DNA of 52,587 nucleotides, taken from contig JAICRU010000011.1 of the NCBI GenBank assembly GCA_025937235.1, forward strand, positions 1-52,587, written 5' to 3'. Source of the stretch: Acidimicrobiia bacterium (lineage in GTDB: Bacteria; Actinomycetota; Acidimicrobiia; Spongiisociales; ZC4RG35). Under the pieces are notes generated by a model. That model was not told the DNA's origin, did not search any database, and worked only from the letters and a program-made list of their open reading frames with translations. A program made the position numbers and the translations under genes. Shown here piece by piece: positions 23,394-33,432 of the stretch (its first letter is position 1; each line of letters opens with the position of its first letter).

Positions 23394-24041
23394 TCAGCCC
23401 CACTCGTTCCGGAACGGGTTGGTTTGCCGCTCCTGACCGATCGTGGTCTCGGGCCCGTGGCCGGGGAGCACTCGCGTCTCGTCATCGAGTGTCATCACCT
23501 TGTCCCGCATCGACCTGAACAAGGCATCTCCGTCCCCATACTCGAAATCGAATCTGCCGATGGAGCCGGCAAAGAGCTGGTCGCCCGAGAACAACATCTC
23601 CTCATCCTGGAGATAGAAGCAGCAGTGCCCGGGGGTGTGACCGGGCGTGTGCCGCACCTCTAGGTCGAATCCTGCCAGCTGGATGTGATCGCCGTCGGTG
23701 AGTGACTCCACCCTCTCCGGCATGTCGTACTCCCCCGGCGGCGTCATGCCGAACATGGCGCGAAGCTGATCCAGGGGGTGAAGGGTGAGGAAGTCGTCAT
23801 CGGGATGGACGTAGACGCTGGCACCCGTGGCCCGGGCCAGCTCGCCACTCCCTCCCGTGTGGTCGATGTGCCCGTGGGTGAGGAGCACGCCGGCCAGGGT
23901 CAGATCATGCTGGATCAGGACCGCCCCGATGGCTTCGGGCTCGGGTGGGGCGTCGACGACCAGCGCCTGCCCCCCGCTCTCCTCGGCCACGACGTACGCG
24001 TTGGTCGCAGCCACCCAGGCCGGCACGGCGATGACGAGCAT
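23394..24041 (-). CDS. Metallo-beta-lactamase-fold hydrolase (glyoxalase II-like)
   Basis: A 215-residue MBL-fold enzyme, probably a thiol-ester hydrolase. Metal ligands are in THGHIDHTGG (HxHxDH), HTPGHTPGH, SGDQLF, and the C-terminal PGHGPETTIGQER. The substrate could be a glyoxalase-type thioester, by similarity to the hydroxyacylglutathione hydrolase family. Actinobacteria generally lack glutathione, so another thiol is likely. The ATG at 24041 overlaps the rel stop by one base. Mycobacterium has a comparable gene at the same position between rel and hisS. Confidence 0.88.
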   Translation of the reverse strand: MLVIAVPAWVAATNAYVVAEESGGQALVVDAPPEPEAIGAVLIQHDLTLAGVLLTHGHIDHTGGSGELARATGASVYVHPDDDFLTLHPLDQLRAMFGMTPPGEYDMPERVESLTDGDHIQLAGFDLEVRHTPGHTPGHCCFYLQDEEMLFSGDQLFAGSIGRFDFEYGDGDALFRSMRDKVMTLDDETRVLPGHGPETTIGQERQTNPFRNEWG

Positions 24042-26203
24042 CAGGTGGCCGGTTCCGTGGCAAGGCGGAATGCGGAGAACACGCCGTCCACGCCACGGAG
24101 ATCGGCCAGGAGCTTGGGCAGCTGACTCGGGTCGGAGAGCTCCACCTCATAGCGGAGAATCGCCACCCGGTCCTCACCGGTGTGTGTCGACGAGGCGGTG
24201 ATGTTGCCCCCGGTGTCGCTGATCACAGCCGTGACGTCACGAAGCAGCCTGGTGCGGTCGAGAGCCTCGACCTGGATCCAGACCACGAAGGCGGCCGTGC
24301 TCCGGGCCGGCCATGCCACCTCTACGGTCCTTTCACGACGCTCGGCCAGCGAGGAGACGTTGGTGCAGTCGGCCCGATGCACCGAGACCCCCCGTCCAAC
24401 GGTGACATACCCCACAATCGGGTCGCCCGGGACCGGGGAGCAGCAGCGGGCGAGGTGGATCAACATGTCGTCCTGTCCCTCGACCACGACCTCGGCGGTG
24501 TCGAGCGGGCGTCTCCTACGGGGATGGAAGAACTCATCTTCGCTCTCCGGGCTGAGCAGACGTGAAAGACGGGTTGCCACGGAATCGATCGACACGGTGC
24601 CCTCGCCCACGGCCACCTGTAGGGATTCGATGTCCCTCTGGCCCAGCTCGGCGGAGATCGAGGTCAGGAGGCTCTCCTTCTCGGCGGCGGGGATCCCCGA
24701 AGCCTCCCTCTTCAACAGGGACTGGAGCGCGTCCTTCCCCTCCGAGAGCGCCTGGTCACGACGCTCCTTGGTGAACCATTGCCTGATCTTGGACTTGGCC
24801 CGTCCGGTTCGCACGAAGGCCAGCCAATCCCGGCTGGGGCCGGCGTCGACCGCCTTCGAGGTCATGACCTCGACGATGTCGCCGGATTGGAGACGGGTGG
24901 ACAATGGCACGAGCCGCCCGTTGACCCTGGCACCCACGCATCGGTGCCCGACCTCGGTGTGGACGGCATAGGCGAAGTCCACCGCGGTTGACCCCGCCGG
25001 CAGGGGCTTGACATCTCCACCGGGGGTGAGGACGAAGACTTCGTCTCGATACAGGTCGAGCTTGAGGTTGGCCAGGAACTCCTCGGGGTCTTCGTCGTCG
25101 CCCCACGAGATGAAGTCCATCCGGGGCAGCTGACCGGCCTCGCCTTCCTTGTATCGCCAGTGTGCTGCAATCCCTGCTTCGGCCCTCTGATGCATGTCCT
25201 CGGTCCGAATCTGAACCTCGAGGGGCTTTCCGTCCGGCCCGATCACCGTGGTGTGCAGCGACTGGTAGAGGTTGATCTTGGGCATGGCGATGTAGTCCTT
25301 GAACCGCCCGGTCACGGGCACCCAGTGGCTGTGGATCAACCCCAGAGCGGCGTAGCAATCCCTCACCGTTGCGGCGATGATCCGGATGCCGATCAGGTCG
25401 TGGATGTCCTCGAAGGGACGGTTCTGCTCCCGCATCTTCCGATAGATCGAATATTGGTGCTTGGGACGACCGGTGACCTCGGCCCCGATCCCTGAATCGC
25501 CGAGGATGCCGGAGATCTCGTCGACCATCTTCTCGATGAAGGCCTCCCGCTCCGGGGCGCGCTCGGCCAGCTTGGCCTGGATCTCGGCATTGGGGCCCGG
25601 ATAGAGGATGGCGAAGCAGCGATCCTCGAACTCGTGTTTGATCTCCTGGACCCCGAGCCTGTGAGCGAGCGGGGCGTACACGTCCAGGGTCTCCTGGGCC
25701 ACACGGCGCTGTTTCTCCTCACGCAGGGCATGAACCGTCCGGAGATTGTGGAGACGGTCGAAGAGCTTGATGATCAGAACCCTGACGTCCTGAGCCATGG
25801 CCACCACCATCTTGCGGATGGTCGCCGCCTGGGCCTGTTCCCGGTTCGAGTAGCGGACCCGGTCCAGCTTGGTGACGCCATCGATGAGCCGGGCGATCTC
25901 CTCGCCGAATTTCATCGACAGGTCGTTGAGCGTCAGGGTGGTGTCCTCGACCGTGTCGTGGAGGAGGGCGGCGGCAAGCGTGGGCTCGTCCAGCCCGTAT
26001 TCGGCCAGCATCAGGGCGACGGCCAGTGGGTGGGTGATGTAGGCGTCACCGGTCTTGCGTACCTGGCCGGCGTGCGCTTCGGCTGCCAGCTCATAAGCTC
26101 GGCGCAGCAGGTCTACATCGCCGTCGGGGTGATGGGCGACGAAGGCTGCGACGACATCTTCGAATGCCGCCTGTCCTTGCTCAGTCGTAGGTGACGAGGG
26201 CAT
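24041..26203 (-). CDS. rel: Bifunctional (p)ppGpp synthetase/hydrolase (Rel)
   Basis: Makes and degrades the stringent-response alarmone. The N-terminal HD hydrolase domain retains HD and ED (LLHDTVEDT), so hydrolysis is expected. The synthetase domain has GRPKHQYSIYRKM and YQSLHTTVIG. A TGS domain (VFVLTPGGDVKPLPAGSTAVDFAYAVHTEVG) and a C-terminal ACT domain follow. From the ATG at 26203 it has 720 residues and overlaps apt by 23 bases. An ATG at 26218 would add five residues. Downstream of apt in the usual actinobacterial order. Confidence 0.96.
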   Translation of the reverse strand: MPSSPTTEQGQAAFEDVVAAFVAHHPDGDVDLLRRAYELAAEAHAGQVRKTGDAYITHPLAVALMLAEYGLDEPTLAAALLHDTVEDTTLTLNDLSMKFGEEIARLIDGVTKLDRVRYSNREQAQAATIRKMVVAMAQDVRVLIIKLFDRLHNLRTVHALREEKQRRVAQETLDVYAPLAHRLGVQEIKHEFEDRCFAILYPGPNAEIQAKLAERAPEREAFIEKMVDEISGILGDSGIGAEVTGRPKHQYSIYRKMREQNRPFEDIHDLIGIRIIAATVRDCYAALGLIHSHWVPVTGRFKDYIAMPKINLYQSLHTTVIGPDGKPLEVQIRTEDMHQRAEAGIAAHWRYKEGEAGQLPRMDFISWGDDEDPEEFLANLKLDLYRDEVFVLTPGGDVKPLPAGSTAVDFAYAVHTEVGHRCVGARVNGRLVPLSTRLQSGDIVEVMTSKAVDAGPSRDWLAFVRTGRAKSKIRQWFTKERRDQALSEGKDALQSLLKREASGIPAAEKESLLTSISAELGQRDIESLQVAVGEGTVSIDSVATRLSRLLSPESEDEFFHPRRRRPLDTAEVVVEGQDDMLIHLARCCSPVPGDPIVGYVTVGRGVSVHRADCTNVSSLAERRERTVEVAWPARSTAAFVVWIQVEALDRTRLLRDVTAVISDTGGNITASSTHTGEDRVAILRYEVELSDPSQLPKLLADLRGVDGVFSAFRLATEPAT

Positions 26204-26699
26204 GAAACGGGACACCATCCAGCTTCTTGGCGCCGTCGAGGAAGGACAGCTCGATGAACACGGAGAACCCGACCACTTCGGCGCCTATCTTCCTCAACAA
26301 CCGAATCGCTGCTGCGGCTGTTCCGCCGGTGGCGATGACATCGTCGACGAGCAGGACTTTCTCCCCAGTCCTTGCGGCATCGGTGTGGATCTCCAGCGAG
26401 TCGGTCCCGTATTCCAGCGAGTAGTCCTCTCGGACCGTCTCGTACGGCAGCTTGCCCGGTTTGCGGACCGGGATGAATCCGGCGCCGAGGCGCTCGGCGA
26501 CCGGCGTGGCGAGCGTGAACCCTCGTGCCTCGATGCCGGCCACCTTGTCGACGCCCAGGTCGCGGAATGGCTCCGCCAGAGCATCCACCAGGGCCGCGAA
26601 CGCCTCCCTGTCGGCCAGGACCGGTGTTATGTCCTTGAAGACGACTCCGGGCTCGGGAAAGTCCGGGATGTCGCGGATTAGCGAGGTGAGGTTGTCCAC
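26181..26699 (-). CDS. apt: Adenine phosphoribosyltransferase
   Basis: Salvages adenine with PRPP to AMP. The 172-residue protein has IRDIPDFPEPGVVFKDITPVL at the N terminus (cited in part), GIEARGF, PVRKPGKLP, and the PRPP loop VLLVDDVIATGGTA. It starts with GTG at 26699. In many actinobacteria secF and secD lie between apt and yajC. Here only 20 bases separate them. Confidence 0.96.
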   Translation of the reverse strand: MDNLTSLIRDIPDFPEPGVVFKDITPVLADREAFAALVDALAEPFRDLGVDKVAGIEARGFTLATPVAERLGAGFIPVRKPGKLPYETVREDYSLEYGTDSLEIHTDAARTGEKVLLVDDVIATGGTAAAAIRLLRKIGAEVVGFSVFIELSFLDGAKKLDGVPFHALVTYD

Positions 26700-26719
26700 T
26701 CGCAGAGTCTACGGCCGGA

Positions 26720-27034
26720 TCAGGGGGTTTCCGTGTCCGGCTTGTCTTCACCAACCCGAGAGCCGATGGCCCGCCTGGAGACCCGGATCTTCCCTTCCTC
26801 CACCCGGAGCACCACGCTGTCCTCGTCGACAGAGACAACGGTGCCATGGATGCCCCCGATGGTGCGCACCTCCTCACCCGGGCTCAGAGATTGCGAGAGC
26901 GTCTGCTGGGCCTTGGCCCGCTGGCGCTGGGGTCGGATGATGAACAACCAAAACACCGCAACCATCAAGCCCAGGAAGAGCAACGACGGCAGCGGGCTGG
27001 CCGCGGCCTCCTGAGCAAGGACGACGTGGGTCAA
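26720..27034 (-). CDS. yajC: Preprotein translocase subunit YajC
   Basis: Small membrane protein associated with SecDF in the Sec translocon. The 104-residue protein has one membrane helix (about residues 17-34, SLLFLGLMVAVFWLFII) followed by the family motif RPQRQRAKAQQ and a conserved cytoplasmic segment (LSPGEEVRTIGGIHGTVVSVD). The start is a TTG at 27034, supported by GGGAGG five bases upstream. secD and secF do not follow it, which is unusual. Confidence 0.93.
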   Translation of the reverse strand: MTHVVLAQEAAASPLPSLLFLGLMVAVFWLFIIRPQRQRAKAQQTLSQSLSPGEEVRTIGGIHGTVVSVDEDSVVLRVEEGKIRVSRRAIGSRVGEDKPDTETP

Positions 27035-27089
27035 TTGGTCCTCCCGATCGGGTGCATCAGACCCGGCGAGGTTAGGCGGGCGGATACCC

Positions 27090-28199
27090 CTACGACGAAC
27101 CGCCCGAGCGGGCCCGCGCCACGTCTTCGAGGTATTGCGTGAACACCCCGCCCTCGATGGCGTCGCCGGCGCCTGAGATCAGGTCGAGGGTGTAGCGAAG
27201 GTTGTGGATCGTGAGCAGCCGATGGGATGAGAGCTCCTTGACCTGGACGAGGTGGCGCAGATAGGCCCGGCTGTGCACCGCGCAGGTGCGACACGGGCAC
27301 TCCTCATCGATGGGCCGGTCGTCGGTCTCGTATGCCGCGTTCCGTAGGTTCATGTCGCCGTTGCGGGCCAGGGCTTTGCCGTGGCGGGCGAGACGAGTGG
27401 GGATGACGCAATCGAAAATGTCCGCCCCCCTGGCGATGGCGTCGAGCAGGCCCTCGGTGTCACCCAGCCCCATCACATACCGGGGCTTGTCCCCGGGAAG
27501 CTCCTGGAAACTCGCTTCCAGGGCGGTCACACGCTCCCCGGCGGTCTCCCCGACGGAGAGCCCGCCGATGCCGAAGCCCGGGAATCCAAGAGCCGCGGTG
27601 TGCGCGGCACTCTTCGCCCTGAGATCAGGATCGACCCCGCCCTGGACGATCCCGAATAGGGCCTGATCGGCCCTGCTGTGGGCTTCCAGGCAACGCTCTG
27701 CCCAACGCAGGGTCCGATCCATCTCGGACTCGACCACCTGGCGCGGGGCGGGGAGCCCCACGCAGACGTCGAGCGCCATGGCGATATCCGCCCCCAGCTC
27801 CTCCTGAATCTTCACCGCGACCTCCGGGGTGAGCTCGACCTCTGCGCCGTCGTAGACCGACCTGAACCTGGCGCCGTATTCATCGATCGTTGGAACGAGG
27901 GAGAAGATCTGAAAGCCACCGGAGTCGGTCAGGATCGGGCCGTCCCAGCCCATGAATCGGTGCAGCCCGCCCCGGTCGGCGATCATCGGCGATCCGGGGC
28001 GGAGCATCAGGTGATAGGTGTTGGCCAGCACTATCCCGGCGCCGGCCTCGACGAGATCCCGTGTGTCGACAGCCTTGACCGCCGCCCTGGTCCCGACCGG
28101 CATGAACGTAGGTGTTCGCACCGGGCCATGGGGGGTATCGAGCACGCCGGTGCGGGCCGACCCGTCTCTCGCCGCCAAGGTCCATGTGACCGAGCCCAT
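27090..28199 (-). CDS. tgt: Queuine tRNA-guanine transglycosylase
   Basis: Exchanges guanine-34 of GUN-anticodon tRNAs for preQ1. The 369-residue TIM-barrel enzyme has TDSGGFQIFS with catalytic Asp92, GGLSVGE, the nucleophile Asp in FDCVIPTR, and the zinc site CPCRTC with a downstream His. It lies eight bases after queA, so base exchange and the next step are encoded together. Other queuosine genes (queC, D, E, F) are not in the window. Confidence 0.96.
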   Translation of the reverse strand: MGSVTWTLAARDGSARTGVLDTPHGPVRTPTFMPVGTRAAVKAVDTRDLVEAGAGIVLANTYHLMLRPGSPMIADRGGLHRFMGWDGPILTDSGGFQIFSLVPTIDEYGARFRSVYDGAEVELTPEVAVKIQEELGADIAMALDVCVGLPAPRQVVESEMDRTLRWAERCLEAHSRADQALFGIVQGGVDPDLRAKSAAHTAALGFPGFGIGGLSVGETAGERVTALEASFQELPGDKPRYVMGLGDTEGLLDAIARGADIFDCVIPTRLARHGKALARNGDMNLRNAAYETDDRPIDEECPCRTCAVHSRAYLRHLVQVKELSSHRLLTIHNLRYTLDLISGAGDAIEGGVFTQYLEDVARARSGGSS

Positions 28200-28207
28200 T
28201 ACTGCGA

Positions 28208-29212
28208 TTATCGCTCGGCGTACATCGCATCCCCGAAGGAGAGGAAGCGGTAGCCCCGCTCCAGAGCGGTTCGGTAGGCCTCACGCCACCGTGGCCCCAT
28301 GAATGCCGCCACCAGCACCACCAGTGTGGAGCCGGGGACGTGGAAGTTCGTGACCAACCCGTCGACGACCCTGAACGGGTCTCCGGGCTTGAGGAACAGC
28401 TCGGTTAGGCCCTGAGTGGCGAGCACCAGGCCTTCCTCATCGGCGAACGACTCCAGGGCCCGGACCACGGTCGTGCCGACGGCCACTACCCGACCCCCGG
28501 ACCGACGTGCCTCCCGGACGGCTGCTGCGGTCGCCTCGGGGACGGCACACCATTCCGAGTGCATCCGGTGACCCTCGACCTCGTGTGTGGTGATGGGTCG
28601 GAACGTGTCGATCCCGACATGGAGGTCCACCGTCGCCATGGCGACACCCGCCTCGTCCAGCGCCCGGACCACCTCGGGCGTGAAGTGCAGGCCGGCGGTG
28701 GGTGCTGCCGCCGAGCCGGTGTTACGGGCGAACATCGTCTGATAGCGAGAGCTGTCCTCGAGGGTGCCTTGGAAGTAGGGGGGCAAAGGCACCTCACCAG
28801 CGGCTGCTATCGCCGACTCCACGTCGGGAGCCTCCAGGTCGACTACGACCATCCCTTCGCGCGGCCCATCGACCACGGTGGCCGTCAATCCCTCGAAGTC
28901 GATGATGACCCCAGGGCGAAGACGTCTGGCGGGGCGGGCCAGGGCCTCCCAAAGGCCGCCCCGGCCCTCCGACAGGATCAGCAGCTCTACCGATCCTCCT
29001 GTCTGGCGTCTCGTGCCCGTGAGACGCGCCGCCCTCACCCTGGTCTCGTTGACGACGACCAGGTCGCCGGATCTGAGGAGAGAGGCCAGATCGATGAACC
29101 GGTGATCGGACAGGTCGCGGGTGTCCAGGAGCCGAGAATCGTGTCGTGGCTCGATGGCCTCCTGGGCGATCGAGGAATCCGGCAGTGCATATGTGAACTC
29201 CTCGACCCTCAT
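28208..29212 (-). CDS. queA: S-adenosylmethionine:tRNA ribosyltransferase-isomerase
   Basis: Transfers and isomerises ribose from SAM onto preQ1-tRNA to make epoxyqueuosine. The 334-residue protein has YALPDSSIAQ near the start, LVVNETRV-type sequence (VVVNETRVRAARLTG), PLPPYFQG, TAGLHFTPE, HVGIDTFRPI and TNFHVPGSTL. It lies 12 bases after ruvB and eight before tgt. Its link with the ruv genes is seen in many bacteria. Confidence 0.96.
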   Translation of the reverse strand: MRVEEFTYALPDSSIAQEAIEPRHDSRLLDTRDLSDHRFIDLASLLRSGDLVVVNETRVRAARLTGTRRQTGGSVELLILSEGRGGLWEALARPARRLRPGVIIDFEGLTATVVDGPREGMVVVDLEAPDVESAIAAAGEVPLPPYFQGTLEDSSRYQTMFARNTGSAAAPTAGLHFTPEVVRALDEAGVAMATVDLHVGIDTFRPITTHEVEGHRMHSEWCAVPEATAAAVREARRSGGRVVAVGTTVVRALESFADEEGLVLATQGLTELFLKPGDPFRVVDGLVTNFHVPGSTLVVLVAAFMGPRWREAYRTALERGYRFLSFGDAMYAER

Positions 29213-29224
29213 CCAACCGTGAGG

Positions 29225-30238
29225 CTAGATAAGGGTGCCCTGGGCGTCTGCCGGCGGCTCGCGGCCCAGATGGGCATACCCACGCGAGGTTGCCATCCGG
29301 CCCCTCGGTGTCCGCTTGATCAGCCCGGACTGGAGCAGGAAGGGCTCGTATGCGTCCTCGACGGTCTCGGGCTCCTCCCCGACGGCGATCGAAAGAGTGG
29401 ACAGGCCAACCGGCCCCCCACCGAAACGTTCGATGATCGACTCCAGGATGGCCCGGTCCACCTTGTCTAGGCCCAGGTCGTCCACCTCGAAGACCCGTAG
29501 CGCCTCGTCTGCGACCTGAGGGTCGATGACACCCGACGCCCGTGCCACCGCGTAATCCCTCACCCGGGCCAGCAGCCTGTTGGCGATACGGGGCGTAGAG
29601 CGGCTGCGACCGGCGATGATCTCGGCCGCATCGGCGCTGATCTCCACCCCGATGATCCCGGCCGATCGCTTGATGATCGTCGCCAGCTCTTCTGTCTCGT
29701 AGTAGTCGAGCTTCTCCTCGATTCCGAAGCGATCGCGCAGCGGTGCTGTCACCGTGCCCTTCCTGGTTGTGGCTCCCACCAGGGTGAATCGGGGGAGATC
29801 GAGCCGAATCGACTGCGCCGTCGGCCCCTTACCCAGCACGATGTCCAGCTGGAAGTCCTCCATGGCCGGGTACAGCACCTCTTCCACGACCCGCGGGAGG
29901 CGATGGATCTCGTCTATGAAGAACACATCGCCCACGTCGAGATTGGAGAGGATCGCCGCCAGATCGCCTGGGCGGTCCAGCGCCGGACCGGAGGTGACGC
30001 GCACCTTCACCTCGAGCTCGTGCGCGATCACCCCGGCCAGCGTCGTCTTGCCAAGGCCGGGAGGCCCGGAGAAGAGGACGTGATCGAGCGGCCGACCCTC
30101 CTTGCGGGCGGCCTCGAGCGAGATCTGAAGACGCTCCCTGACTCTGTCCTGTCCGATGAACTCGTCGAGGCGCTTCGGCCGCAACGTCACCTCTTCCTCG
30201 GTCTCGACCGCGGGGTTGAGCAGTGAGTCCTCCCGCAC
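29225..30238 (-). CDS. ruvB: Holliday junction branch-migration helicase RuvB
   Basis: Hexameric AAA+ motor that drives branch migration with RuvA. Walker [10 protein letters not shown] is near residues 58-66. Walker B is FFIDEIHRL, followed by the sensor/arginine-finger region [18 protein letters not shown]. The winged-helix domain ends in [14 protein letters not shown]. The 337-residue protein starts with GTG at 30238, two bases after the ruvA stop. Confidence 0.97.
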
Positions 30239-30240
30239 GG

Positions 30241-30810
30241 CTAGCCACGGCCCAGGGCACGGAGAGCGGTCTTGATCTGTGTCTCGATGCTCGTCTCGGC
30301 GTCGAGCTCCCCGATGACTGCATTGATCTCCTCGGTGGTGTACCCCAGTCCCTCCAATGCCTGGCGCACGGTGACGGTGTTGGTTGGAGCAACCACTTCT
30401 GCTTCAACGCCGGCCAGCTTGGGAGAGAGCTCGAGGACGATCTTCTGCGCCCCCCTCTTCCCGACTCCGGGGACCACGGTGAGGGCGTCGGAGTCCTCGG
30501 TGACGATGGCGCGGACCACCTCCTGATGCGTCATGGCGCCGAGGATGGACATGGCCAGCTTCGGTCCCACTCCCCCGGCGCCGAGCAATATTCGAAAGAG
30601 GTCGCGGTCGGCTTCCGCCTCGAAGCCATAGAGACTCATCTCGTCTTCACGGACATGGGTGTGGGTGTGGACCACCACTTCCTCACCGACGCCGGGCAGC
30701 CCGCCCAGGCTGCGGAGGGTCATAGTCACCTCGTAGCCGACACCGCCGACTTCAACACAGGCCATGTCTCCCCGTCTGGCCACGAGGACTCCACGGAGCC
30801 GGCCGATCAC
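30241..30810 (-). CDS. ruvA: Holliday junction DNA-binding protein RuvA
   Basis: Tetrameric protein that binds four-way junctions and recruits RuvB. From the GTG at 30810 it has 189 residues starting [12 protein letters not shown] (the normal RuvA N terminus). It has the two helix-hairpin-helix motifs ([16 protein letters not shown] and [19 protein letters not shown]) and a C-terminal three-helix RuvB-binding domain. The start overlaps the ruvC stop in a GTGA. The longer open frame upstream is antisense-like sequence over ruvC. Confidence 0.96.
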
Positions 30811-31289
30811 CTGGCCCGCTCCAGCGGGGCGGCCCTGAGATGGCACAGTGCGATGGCCAGGGCGTCGGCGGCGTCTGCAGGCTTCGGGGGGTCGGTGAGC
30901 CTGAGCAGTCTTGCCACCATCGACTGGATCTGGGTCTTATTGGCGGCACCGTCGCCGGTGACCGCGGACTTGACCGCGGTCGGGGCGTATTCCGATACGT
31001 TGACACCGGCCCGAGCGGCGACGAGCAGGGCGACTCCGGAGGCACGTCCCACCGCGATGGCCGTTTGCAGGTTCCGGTTGGTGAATACCGTCTCCACAGC
31101 CACCGCGTCGGGCCGTGACTCCTCGATCACCTGAGTCAGACCCAGGAACAGCTCATGCAGTCGTACGGCCATCGTCGCCCCCGGATCGGTCCTGATCACC
31201 CCGGCCAGCCGGGCGATCGGGGGGTACCCACCCTCGACCAACCCGTACCCGGTGGCGGAGAGCCCGGGGTCGATGCCCATGACGAACAT
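30807..31289 (-). CDS. ruvC: Holliday junction resolvase RuvC
   Basis: Endonuclease that cleaves Holliday junctions. The RNase H-like fold shows the acidic residues in MGIDPGLSATGYG, AVETVF, and the C-terminal KPADAADALAIALCH. From the ATG at 31289 it has 160 residues. An ATG three codons later (31280) is also possible. No Shine-Dalgarno sequence is present. A TATTCT lies at 31305-31300, so the mRNA may be leaderless or nearly so. An SOS-box-like palindrome overlaps the start. It is first in the ruvC-ruvA-ruvB-queA-tgt run. Confidence 0.95.
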   Translation of the reverse strand: MFVMGIDPGLSATGYGLVEGGYPPIARLAGVIRTDPGATMAVRLHELFLGLTQVIEESRPDAVAVETVFTNRNLQTAIAVGRASGVALLVAARAGVNVSEYAPTAVKSAVTGDGAANKTQIQSMVARLLRLTDPPKPADAADALAIALCHLRAAPLERAR

Positions 31290-31297
31290 ATGTTTGG
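31282..31297. promoter_or_regulatory. Probable LexA (SOS) box over the ruvC start
   Basis: The sequence ACGAACATATGTTTGG contains the inverted repeat CGAAC-N4-GTTTG. It differs by one base in each outer half from the Gram-positive LexA consensus CGAAC-N4-GTTCG. It overlaps the ATG at 31289 and sits just downstream of a TATTCT -10 element (31305-31300), where repressor would block transcription. Mycobacterial ruvC is known to be SOS-controlled, which supports the assignment. Binding is inferred. Confidence 0.75.
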
Positions 31298-31344
31298 TGA
31301 GAATAGGCAACGACGACCCGATTGCCCGCCATTTCCTCACGACG

Positions 31345-31377
31345 CGATGGTGGGCGCCGTCCCGGCGCCCACCATCG
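31345..31377. terminator. Perfect 15-bp hairpin between ruvC and the GlsB-like gene
   Basis: CGATGGTGGGCGCCG (31345-31359) and its exact reverse complement (31363-31377) flank a three-base TCC loop. It lies 20 bases beyond the stop of the leftward GlsB-like gene. There is no T run on either side, so it is either a GC-rich transcript-end stabiliser or a Rho-assisted terminator that insulates the ruv operon. Confidence 0.65.
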
Positions 31378-31396
31378 ATCTGGCCAGTTGTCTTGG

Positions 31397-31657
31397 CTAC
31401 GTGGCCGTGCTGGACGACCTCATCGCCCGGTAGAGCAGCAGGGCGATGATCGCACCGATGATCGACCCGATGATTCCGGCTGCGGTCACGTCCCATTGTC
31501 CGTCGAAGAACAAGTTCCCGAGGAAGCCGCCGACCAGAGAGCCGATCAGCCCGAGGACAATCGTGCCGAGCACTCCCATCGGGTCGGACCCGGGCACCAG
31601 TGCCCTAGCGATCAGACCGGCGATGAGGCCGACGAGCAGCCATATGAGAATTCCCAT
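31397..31657 (-). CDS. GlsB/YeaQ/YmgE family small membrane protein (copy 1)
   Basis: An 86-residue, very hydrophobic protein with three predicted membrane helices and the glycine-rich family pattern (GLIAGLIARALVPGSDPMG ... GSLVGGFLGNLFF ... GSIIGAIIALLLY). The family (Transgly_assoc) is often stress-induced and of unclear function. AGGAGGG lies six bases before the ATG at 31657, ruling out the longer open frame. It is divergent from a second family member at 31785. Confidence 0.9.
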   Translation of the reverse strand: MGILIWLLVGLIAGLIARALVPGSDPMGVLGTIVLGLIGSLVGGFLGNLFFDGQWDVTAAGIIGSIIGAIIALLLYRAMRSSSTAT

Positions 31658-31784
31658 GTATTTCCCTCCTGCTGGGTGTGGGGTAGCCCACTTACCACCA
31701 CAGCAAGACGGCAAAACCGTCCTGCCCGCACGGTCCGGCATGTGATGCGTAGGGTGTTATCAGCCCTAGAGAAGGAGCATTTGC

Positions 31785-32090
31785 ATGGATTGGCTCTCGA
31801 CGATCATCGGAGCACTACTCGGAGGCATCATCATCGGCCCCCTGGCCCGCCTGGTCCTGCCCGGCCGGCAGAACATCTCCTTGGGCCTGACCATCCTGAT
31901 CGGGGCGGTCGGCGCCTTCGTCGGCGGCTTGATCGCCGATTGGATGGGCGTCGGGGAGACCTCTGGCATCGACTGGACCAAGCTCCTCATCCAGGTCGCA
32001 GTCGCCGCCGTCCTGGTGCTGCTCTACGGCGCCATGGCGTCAAGAGGGACCACCGGAGGCACGAGCACCCCGCCGCCACCCGCCACCTGA
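31785..32090 (+). CDS. GlsB/YeaQ/YmgE family small membrane protein (copy 2)
   Basis: A 101-residue paralogue with three membrane helices (IIGALLGGIIIGPLARLVLPG, then LGLTILIGAVGAFVGGLIADW, both cited in part, and LLIQVAVAAVLVLLYG). It has a Thr/Gly/Pro-rich tail absent from copy 1. AAGGAG lies seven bases before the ATG. The 127-base gap to copy 1 must hold both promoters. A TGTTAT at 31755-31760 is a possible -10 for this gene. It converges on yebC with a 19-base gap. Confidence 0.88.
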   Translation: MDWLSTIIGALLGGIIIGPLARLVLPGRQNISLGLTILIGAVGAFVGGLIADWMGVGETSGIDWTKLLIQVAVAAVLVLLYGAMASRGTTGGTSTPPPPAT

Positions 32091-32109
32091 CACGCCGGCC
32101 GCGAACTGA

Positions 32110-32859
32110 TCAGACTTCTTCGAGGACGCGCTCCATGACGTCGTCGTCGATGTCGTAGTTCGAGAACACGGCCTGCACGTCGTCGAGATCATCCAGGGCG
32201 TCGATCAGACGCAGGAGTTTGCGCGCCTCGGTCTCGCCGACGGGGACCGTGGAGGACGGCAGTTGGGTCACATCGGCCGAGTCGACCTCGAGCCCGGCCT
32301 CGTCGAGGGCCGCGCGCACCTGTTGCACCTCCCCCGGCGACGTGATCACCTCGAACCATCCGTCGCCGCTGTCGCGCACGTCTTCGGCGCCCGCGTCCAG
32401 GGCGGCCATCATGACTTCGTCTTCGACCCCCTTGACGTCGATCAGGCCTCGTTGTGTGAACAGATATCCGACCGAGCCGGGCTCACCGAGGTTGCCCCCG
32501 CTCCTGGTGAAGGTCGAACGGACGTCGGAGGCGGCCCGGTTGCGATTGTCGGTGAGGATCTGCACGAAGAGGGCCACACCGCCGGGCCCGTAGCCCTCGT
32601 ACCAGATCTCCTCGTAGTGCGCGCCTGCGACCTCACCCGTGCCCCTCTTGATGGCGCGCTCGATGTTGTCGTTCGGCATCGACGCCGCCTTCGCTTTGAA
32701 TACCGCCGTGGCCAGGGTCGGGTTGAAGTCGGGGTTGCCGCCGCCCTCCCGGGCCGCGATCTCGATCGCCTTGGCCAGCTTCCCGAAGAGCTTGCCCCGT
32801 GCCGCGTCCTGGCGCCCCTTGCGGTGCTTGATGTTCGCCCACTTGGAATGACCGGCCAC
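32110..32859 (-). CDS. yebC: YebC/PmpR family protein
   Basis: Family of DNA-binding transcription regulators; recent work also links some members to translation of polyproline stretches. The 249-residue protein has the invariant AGHSKWANIKHRKGRQD N terminus, MPNDNIERAIKRGTGE, YEGYGPGGVALFV, and DNRNRAASDVR. It starts with GTG at 32859, preceded by GAGGAGG four bases upstream. It follows pdxT by nine bases and ends the pimA-pdxS-pdxT-yebC cluster. Confidence 0.95.
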   Translation of the reverse strand: MAGHSKWANIKHRKGRQDAARGKLFGKLAKAIEIAAREGGGNPDFNPTLATAVFKAKAASMPNDNIERAIKRGTGEVAGAHYEEIWYEGYGPGGVALFVQILTDNRNRAASDVRSTFTRSGGNLGEPGSVGYLFTQRGLIDVKGVEDEVMMAALDAGAEDVRDSGDGWFEVITSPGEVQQVRAALDEAGLEVDSADVTQLPSSTVPVGETEARKLLRLIDALDDLDDVQAVFSNYDIDDDVMERVLEEV

Positions 32860-32868
32860 GAGCCCTCC

Positions 32869-33432
32869 TCAGACCATCTCGAGCAACATGTGATGGATCC
32901 GATTATCACCCGTGAGCTCGGGATGAAAGGAGCTGGCAAGGATGTTGCCCTGACGCACCATGACCGGATGGTCCGCGACGTTGGCCAGGACCTCGACATC
33001 GCTCCCCGCCTTCTCGACCCAGGGAGCGCGGATGAACACGGCGTGGAACGTCTCGTCCAACCCTTCCACGTCGAGATCGGCCTCGAAAGACTCGTTTTGA
33101 CGGCCGAATGCGTTGCGGCGCACCAGCACATCGAGGGCGCCGATCAGCGGCTGGTCTCCCTCCGTGACCGCGCCGGCGAGGAGGATCATCCCTGCGCAGG
33201 TCCCAAAGGTGGGCTGGCCCGACTCGATCGACTCCCTGAGCGGCTCGATGAGGCCGAACCGGGTCGCCATCTTCCCGATCGTGGTCGACTCTCCCCCCGG
33301 AATGACGAGCGCATCGACTTCGCCAAGCTGCTCGGGCTTCTTGACAGTGACCGTGCTCACCCCCAGCGAGTCGAGGATGTTCAGGTGCTCCCGAAAGTCG
33401 CCCTGCAGGGCCAGGACACCGACGCGGGTCAT
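32869..33432 (-). CDS. pdxT: Pyridoxal 5'-phosphate synthase glutaminase subunit PdxT
   Basis: Glutaminase partner of PdxS that supplies ammonia for PLP synthesis. The 187-residue class I amidotransferase has GVLALQGDFREH, IPGGESTTIG, the nucleophile Cys in FGTCAGMILLA, and the His-x-Glu of SSFHPEL. The ATG at 33432 is separated from the pdxS stop by a single base (TGAGATG), so the subunits are co-translated. The upstream open extension lies inside pdxS and is not coding. Confidence 0.96.
   Translation of the reverse strand: MTRVGVLALQGDFREHLNILDSLGVSTVTVKKPEQLGEVDALVIPGGESTTIGKMATRFGLIEPLRESIESGQPTFGTCAGMILLAGAVTEGDQPLIGALDVLVRRNAFGRQNESFEADLDVEGLDETFHAVFIRAPWVEKAGSDVEVLANVADHPVMVRQGNILASSFHPELTGDNRIHHMLLEMV

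Follow-up and report, generated by a model that had tools for sequence, protein, structure and literature searches.

A predicted LexA operator centered on the start codon of a leaderless-type ruvC gene in Acidimicrobiia

The window, by which we mean the whole 52,587-nt stretch of Acidimicrobiia DNA analyzed here, is one contig (C125) of a 3.08-Mb genome in 171 contigs. On its minus strand it carries ruvC, ruvA, ruvB, queA, tgt, yajC, apt, and a gene for a RelA/SpoT protein (rel), and the identities of all of these are backed by NCBIfam. The genes and the features around the ruvC start are as follows.

31345 to 31377, no strand assigned: perfect 15-nt inverted repeat with a 3-nt loop and no T-run, between a GlsB-like gene and ruvC
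31300 to 31305, minus strand: TATTCT, the -10 element of a predicted leaderless-type ruvC promoter (TANNNT 5 to 11 nt before ruvC in 29/30 genera)
31293, minus strand: predicted ruvC transcription start, the 7th base after the -10 element, leaving a 4-nt leader (from the usual -10 to +1 distance)
31282 to 31297, minus strand: candidate LexA (SOS) box, the 16-mer CCAAACATATGTTCGT, centered on the ruvC ATG; the window's best matrix score (20.9), same position at 44/54 loci
30807 to 31289, minus strand: ruvC (NF000711 and TIGR00228, above cut-off); its first codons, ATG TTC G, form the right half of the box
30241 to 30810, minus strand: ruvA (TIGR00084); GTG start overlaps the ruvC stop
29225 to 30238, minus strand: ruvB (TIGR00635)
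28208 to 29212, minus strand: queA (TIGR00113)
27090 to 28199, minus strand: tgt (TIGR00430)
26720 to 27034, minus strand: yajC (TIGR00739)
26181 to 26699, minus strand: apt (TIGR01090)
24041 to 26218, minus strand: rel (TIGR00691); start overlaps apt

A 14-bp palindrome, CGAACATATGTTTG, lies at 31283 to 31296 and spans the ruvC ATG. On the minus strand it reads CAAACATATGTTCG (31296 to 31283), with the ATG (31289 to 31287) in its middle, so that the order of elements is TATTCT, CAC, CAAACAT, ATG, and TTCG, and the gene begins ATG TTC GTC. The TATTCT element (31305 to 31300) is 3 nt upstream of the palindrome and ends 10 nt before the ATG. The initial annotation had placed a box across the ruvC start codon with TATTCT three bases upstream, and we found that both the sequence and the coordinates agree.

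For scoring, we made a matrix from 20 further sites in the same genome, some of them unproven, leaving ruvC out. The ruvC site scored 20.9, compared with 13.1 for the next best place in the window. With the same matrix, recA scored 18.6, uvrA scored 17.1, and lexA scored 20.5 to 25.0, within a regulon range of 17.1 to 30.7. The ruvC box differs from the commonest form in the genome, TCGAACATATGTTCGA, at one core base and both outer bases, and this variant is letter-identical to one of the four boxes of lexA. As a background, we drew 180-nt pieces from elsewhere in the ruvC loci of relatives, and a score of 10 was reached in 28 of 2,028 draws. The ruvC box is more than a chance match. A second exact match in the window, CGAACTCGTGTTTG at 25627, was taken as chance, being inside the rel coding sequence with a score of 12.7.

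Upstream of the box, the inverted repeat at 31345 to 31377 may insulate ruvC. In many bacteria yebC and ruvC are adjacent; here two small GlsB/YeaQ-like membrane protein genes, 31397 to 31657 (minus strand) and 31785 to 32090 (plus strand), lie between them and point apart.

Absence of lexA from the genome had been named as a refutation of the operator. We found one lexA gene in single copy (PF01726, 86.9 bits against a cut-off of 23.7), whose translation contains what we take to be an Ala-Gly cleavage site and Ser/Lys-type peptidase motifs. The pattern CGAACNNNNGTTYG matched the 3.08-Mb genome 26 times forward and 25 times in reverse, compared with 3 and 3 for the reversed control. Four boxes lie upstream of lexA, and others precede recA, uvrA, dnaE2, an exonuclease/GIY-YIG gene, an AlkB-like 2OG-Fe(II) oxygenase gene, and DUF222-HNH genes.

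Several of these loci drew our attention on their own account. A small LysM protein gene (L023, G000:C129, 2215 to 2556, minus strand) is divergent from lexA and starts within one of the four shared SOS boxes; other actinobacteria have lexA/divS-type gene pairs for SOS division block, which this arrangement presumably resembles. Contigs C51, C52, C57, C126, C140, C150, and C170 of the same genome (G000) carry several DUF222/HNH-type loci that resemble one another and have perfect SOS boxes. Many of these loci lie at or near contig ends, which suggests that the assembly breaks at the copies of one family. An overlapping double box, CAAACGAACGTTCGTTTG, lies at G000:C51:736-753, about 30 nt before a 309-codon frame.

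To follow the box through relatives, we used 60 genomes of the same order and closer, the window's own included. The search found ruvC in 54 of them and no ruvC match in G007, G008, G012, G023, G044, and G059. Absence of the motif from ruvC starts in close relatives had been put forward as evidence against the operator; instead, we found a box at 48 of the 54 loci, 44 of them exactly at -8 (centered on the start codon) and 4 upstream, with 6 loci having none. The left half of the box is degenerate in many relatives (CGTACAT, AGAACAT). We found no box at the starts of the downstream genes (0/245: ruvA, 0/52; ruvB, 0/54; queA, 0/34; tgt, 0/34; yajC, 0/28; apt, 0/20; rel, 0/23).

Two genera depart from the common arrangement. 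In genus g23 (4 loci), the box is at -37 to -43 from the ruvC start; the pair of -10 element and box is retained, and the start codon lies 29 to 35 nt past the ATG of the box (G038, G051, and G058, read by eye). In genus g10 (6 loci), the ruvC start codon and the -10 element are retained and the box is lost. Loss of LexA, the expected cause, was ruled out, since five of the six genomes have LexA and normal boxes before lexA. Because g10 lost the ruvC box yet kept the boxes at lexA, SOS control of ruvC is not essential. The g10 RuvC proteins (L092 to L097), whose genes begin GTG TTG GTA, are about 44% identical to that of the window; replacement of ruvC and relaxed SOS control are both possible.

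In 29.0 of 30 genera, a TANNNT ends 5 to 11 nt upstream of ruvC, most often at 9 or 10 nt (300 shuffles: mean, 1.7; maximum, 5.2). Leaderless-type spacing puts TANNNT about 6 to 10 nt before the start codon, and ruvC, with 10 nt, fits. From such spacing, the ruvC mRNA is predicted to start within the box, no more than a few bases from the ATG. These results support the initial proposal of a LexA operator on a leaderless-type promoter at ruvC.

We also collected 80 ruvC loci from a public genome collection using the MFV peptide as the search pattern, which favors box-bearing starts. At a cut-off of 12, the box was at -8 in 27 and further upstream in 16, and 37 had none above the cut-off, a group that includes the weaker -8 boxes of L161 (7.3) and L179 (12.0, rounded). 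The leaderless TANNNT was present at 27/27 loci with the box at -8, compared with 1/16 with the box further upstream. As labeled, the -8 group comprises Acidimicrobiia, Acidimicrobiales, and Acidimicrobiaceae, other actinobacterial MAGs, and a few MAGs filed elsewhere. Actinomycetia make up most of the upstream-box group (Kribbella, Nonomuraea, Nocardiopsis, Actinoplanes-like, and others), and in several of these loci a purine-rich, Shine-Dalgarno-like stretch separates the box from the start. Where a ruvC box occurs in Streptomyces-type actinobacteria, it lies upstream of a leadered start. Two of the MAGs filed elsewhere, L129 (JACZUI010000003.1) and L135, are filed as Acidobacteria and have Acidimicrobiia-type ruvC loci; these labels are probably wrong.

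The same module occurs at other genes. We searched 99 genomes of the order for TANNNTNNGAACNNATGTTCG, which combines the -10 element, the box, and the embedded ATG, and found 43 occurrences in 33 genomes, compared with 1 for the reversed control. At 25 of the 30 loci examined, a frame of 100 amino acids or more begins with the embedded ATG. On the opposite strand of the same palindrome, a start codon is present in 28, and only 1 of these 28 opens a frame of at least 100 amino acids. The products among the loci examined include RuvC, DUF222 and HNH proteins, a DnaE2-type polymerase, and a LysM protein. In the window's own genome, the AlkB-like gene and three DUF222-HNH-type loci (of which only L027 was Pfam scanned) have this arrangement. 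We think it somewhat probable that leaderless genes of Acidimicrobiia (ruvC, dnaE2, DUF222-HNH, LysM, and AlkB-like genes) routinely have their start codon fused with the SOS operator. One 14-bp element would then be operator, transcription start, and translation start at once and would fix Phe as the second residue, so that the N terminus of RuvC would be set by repressor binding and not by RuvC function.

Our main reading, to which we give a probability of about 0.86, is that a LexA operator covers the start of a leaderless-type ruvC promoter, that ruvCAB and perhaps queA-tgt are released on DNA damage, and that yajC and apt-rel depend little on LexA. What the computation shows is the motif with its position and conservation, the -10 element, the recurring module, and internal promoter motifs; from these we infer LexA binding, the start site, repression and induction, and the degree of read-through. 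With TATTCT as the -10 element, transcription would start within the operator, some 4 nt upstream of the ATG, and a single 14-bp palindrome would serve as repressor site, transcription start, and start codon, with the N terminus fixed as Met-Phe. LexA bound over the start point and the flank of the -10 element would block RNA polymerase. Upon DNA damage, RecA filaments would trigger LexA cleavage and a short-leader or leaderless ruvC mRNA would be made. The ruvA and ruvB genes would follow ruvC, with ruvA coupled by the GTGA overlap, and transcripts may continue into queA-tgt; yajC and apt-rel would use their own promoters, mostly independently of LexA.

How far SOS control extends depends on the promoters within the run. 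Three -10 motifs in the window are predicted to serve downstream genes.

29222 to 29227, minus strand: TAGCCT, predicted -10 element of a leaderless-type queA promoter; overlaps the ruvB stop codon; 7.3/19 genera
27069 to 27074, minus strand: TAACCT, predicted -10 element of a leadered yajC promoter; CTA[AG][CT]CT in 8.0/17 genera
26706 to 26711, minus strand: TAGACT, predicted -10 element of a leaderless apt promoter; 6 nt before the GTG; 14/14 genera

Before apt, TANNNT lies 5 to 11 nt upstream in 14.0/14 genera (shuffle mean, 0.4; maximum, 2.3) and still in 12.0/14 when starts are not snapped to a start codon. For yajC, CTA[AG][CT]CT lies 24 to 40 nt before the start in 8.0/17 genera (shuffle mean, 0.06), TANNNT is found in 11.0/17 (shuffle mean, 1.7), and a purine-rich GGGAGG precedes the TTG start. 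For queA, a -10 motif at leaderless spacing is present in 7.3/19 genera (shuffle mean, 0.6; maximum, 3.5), or 8.0/20 with a wider search span, and TAGCCT has this spacing in the window and its two congeners. Conserved -10 motifs were at background before ruvA (0.2/29 genera), ruvB (0/27), tgt (2.0/21), and rel (0/15). A sigma-70 consensus scan of 23500 to 32900, which does not model leaderless actinobacterial promoters and is therefore no evidence against them, gave 0 promoter-like sites, compared with 0.9 in shuffles. The initial annotation had expected SOS control of the whole run unless internal promoters exist, and the comparison with relatives indicates that they probably do.

The order ruvCAB-queA-tgt-yajC-(secDF)-apt-rel is found in many relatives, several of which have inserted genes between ruvB and queA or between yajC and apt. 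In most relatives, yajC and apt are separated by about 2.4 kb, where secD/secF usually lie; this stretch is missing at this locus (window 26700 to 26720) in the window's genus (G001 and G002) and in G010. A SecD-type frame of 774 amino acids lies elsewhere in the genome (C135).

One alternative, compatible with our main reading, is that the box is real and that SOS induction extends no further than ruvCAB and, through read-through, queA-tgt. We give this about an even chance. The gaps are 12 nt (ruvB-queA) and 8 nt (queA-tgt), no terminator was seen, and the queA promoter motif is present in under half of the genera; against it, the queA TAGCCT of the window and its two congeners could supply a baseline that masks induction. 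A passage of PMC11703503 states that tgt goes up after mitomycin C in Vibrio cholerae by indirect SOS induction, and an SOS-tgt link is therefore not without precedent. The word tgt is absent from the main text of Krin et al. 2018, which is cited elsewhere for tgt and mitomycin. SOS read-through could reach queA-tgt at most.

The fuller version put forward initially, a single LexA-controlled polycistronic transcript from ruvC to rel through which damage raises both queuosine and stringent-response genes, we consider improbable. All the genes are on one strand with short gaps or overlaps, the minus strand showed no terminator-like site from ruvC to rel, the gene order recurs in many relatives, and the V. 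cholerae statement (PMC11703503, in the passage cited above) lends some support. However, fixed-spacing -10 motifs precede apt (14/14 genera), yajC (8 to 11/17), and queA (7.3/19) and fall to background at ruvA, ruvB, tgt, and rel; insertions split ruvB-queA or yajC-apt in several relatives; and genus g10 has the gene order without the box. One LexA-covered start for the entire run does not fit these motifs or the lack of downstream boxes. Since rel overlaps apt, it is presumably cotranscribed with apt, most likely from the apt promoter. Of the proposed coupling, possible read-through into the queuosine genes is left; a link of SOS to stringent-response genes is unlikely because yajC and apt-rel appear to have their own promoters.

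It is very improbable that the palindrome is no LexA site but arises from an AT-rich translation start together with a protein start conserved as MFV: half of the box is coding and MFV is invariant in nine aligned RuvC proteins, but the upstream, noncoding half is conserved too, no box is found at 20 apt or 34 queA starts, the box persists in g23 despite the moved start codon, MFV becomes MLV where the start moved (g23) or the box was lost (with the exception of G045), and the same element precedes lexA, recA, and uvrA.

Under our main reading, that of a LexA operator at the ruvC start, SOS control probably extends to ruvC in an actinobacterial class that has been little studied, and a repressor operator could persist as coding sequence through fusion with a leaderless start codon. 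Searching for a -10 element followed by a box containing ATG would then be an easy way to locate SOS genes in this class and to place their starts correctly. Relatives offer a natural experiment, one genus having shifted the start out of the box and another having lost the box. Induction of rel by DNA damage also becomes less likely in these bacteria. In the open literature searched, which covers part of the published work, we found no description of a leaderless start codon lying within an SOS box; nor did we find there the variant predicted here, a fusion of operator and start codon that is conserved across the class and recurs over the regulon.

SOS regulation of ruvC is itself of a known kind. 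Bacillus subtilis has a ruvAB-queA group, in which we know of no ruvC. The consulted parts of PMC6051672 place queA directly downstream of ruvAB in B. subtilis, the order found here, and ascribe a queA transposon phenotype to that position; the LexA box context there differs from ours. In Mycobacterium tuberculosis, the sections of PMC2897130 consulted describe lexA as leaderless, its translational start being its transcriptional start. This is an actinobacterial SOS gene with coinciding starts, known for lexA and predicted here for ruvC; that case concerns lexA, and those sections make no claim of a box embedded in a start codon. In Streptomyces venezuelae, as described in the excerpts of PMC9380542, LexA gives a ChIP-seq peak at ruvC-ruvA, which mitomycin induces, and ruvC is counted among the core SOS targets. 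The targets there also include dnaE2, lexA, recA, and alkB, and a TCGTAC-type half site is accepted at dnaE2. As an SOS target, ruvC is known there and predicted here; according to the same excerpts, the S. venezuelae box starts at -23 from the ruvC start codon, whereas the box here has at its center the start codon of an mRNA predicted to be leaderless. Judged from sequence, ruvC would belong to the SOS regulon in the ordinary way; what is unusual, and conserved in the lineage, is an architecture that would place operator, transcription start, and start codon at the same spot.
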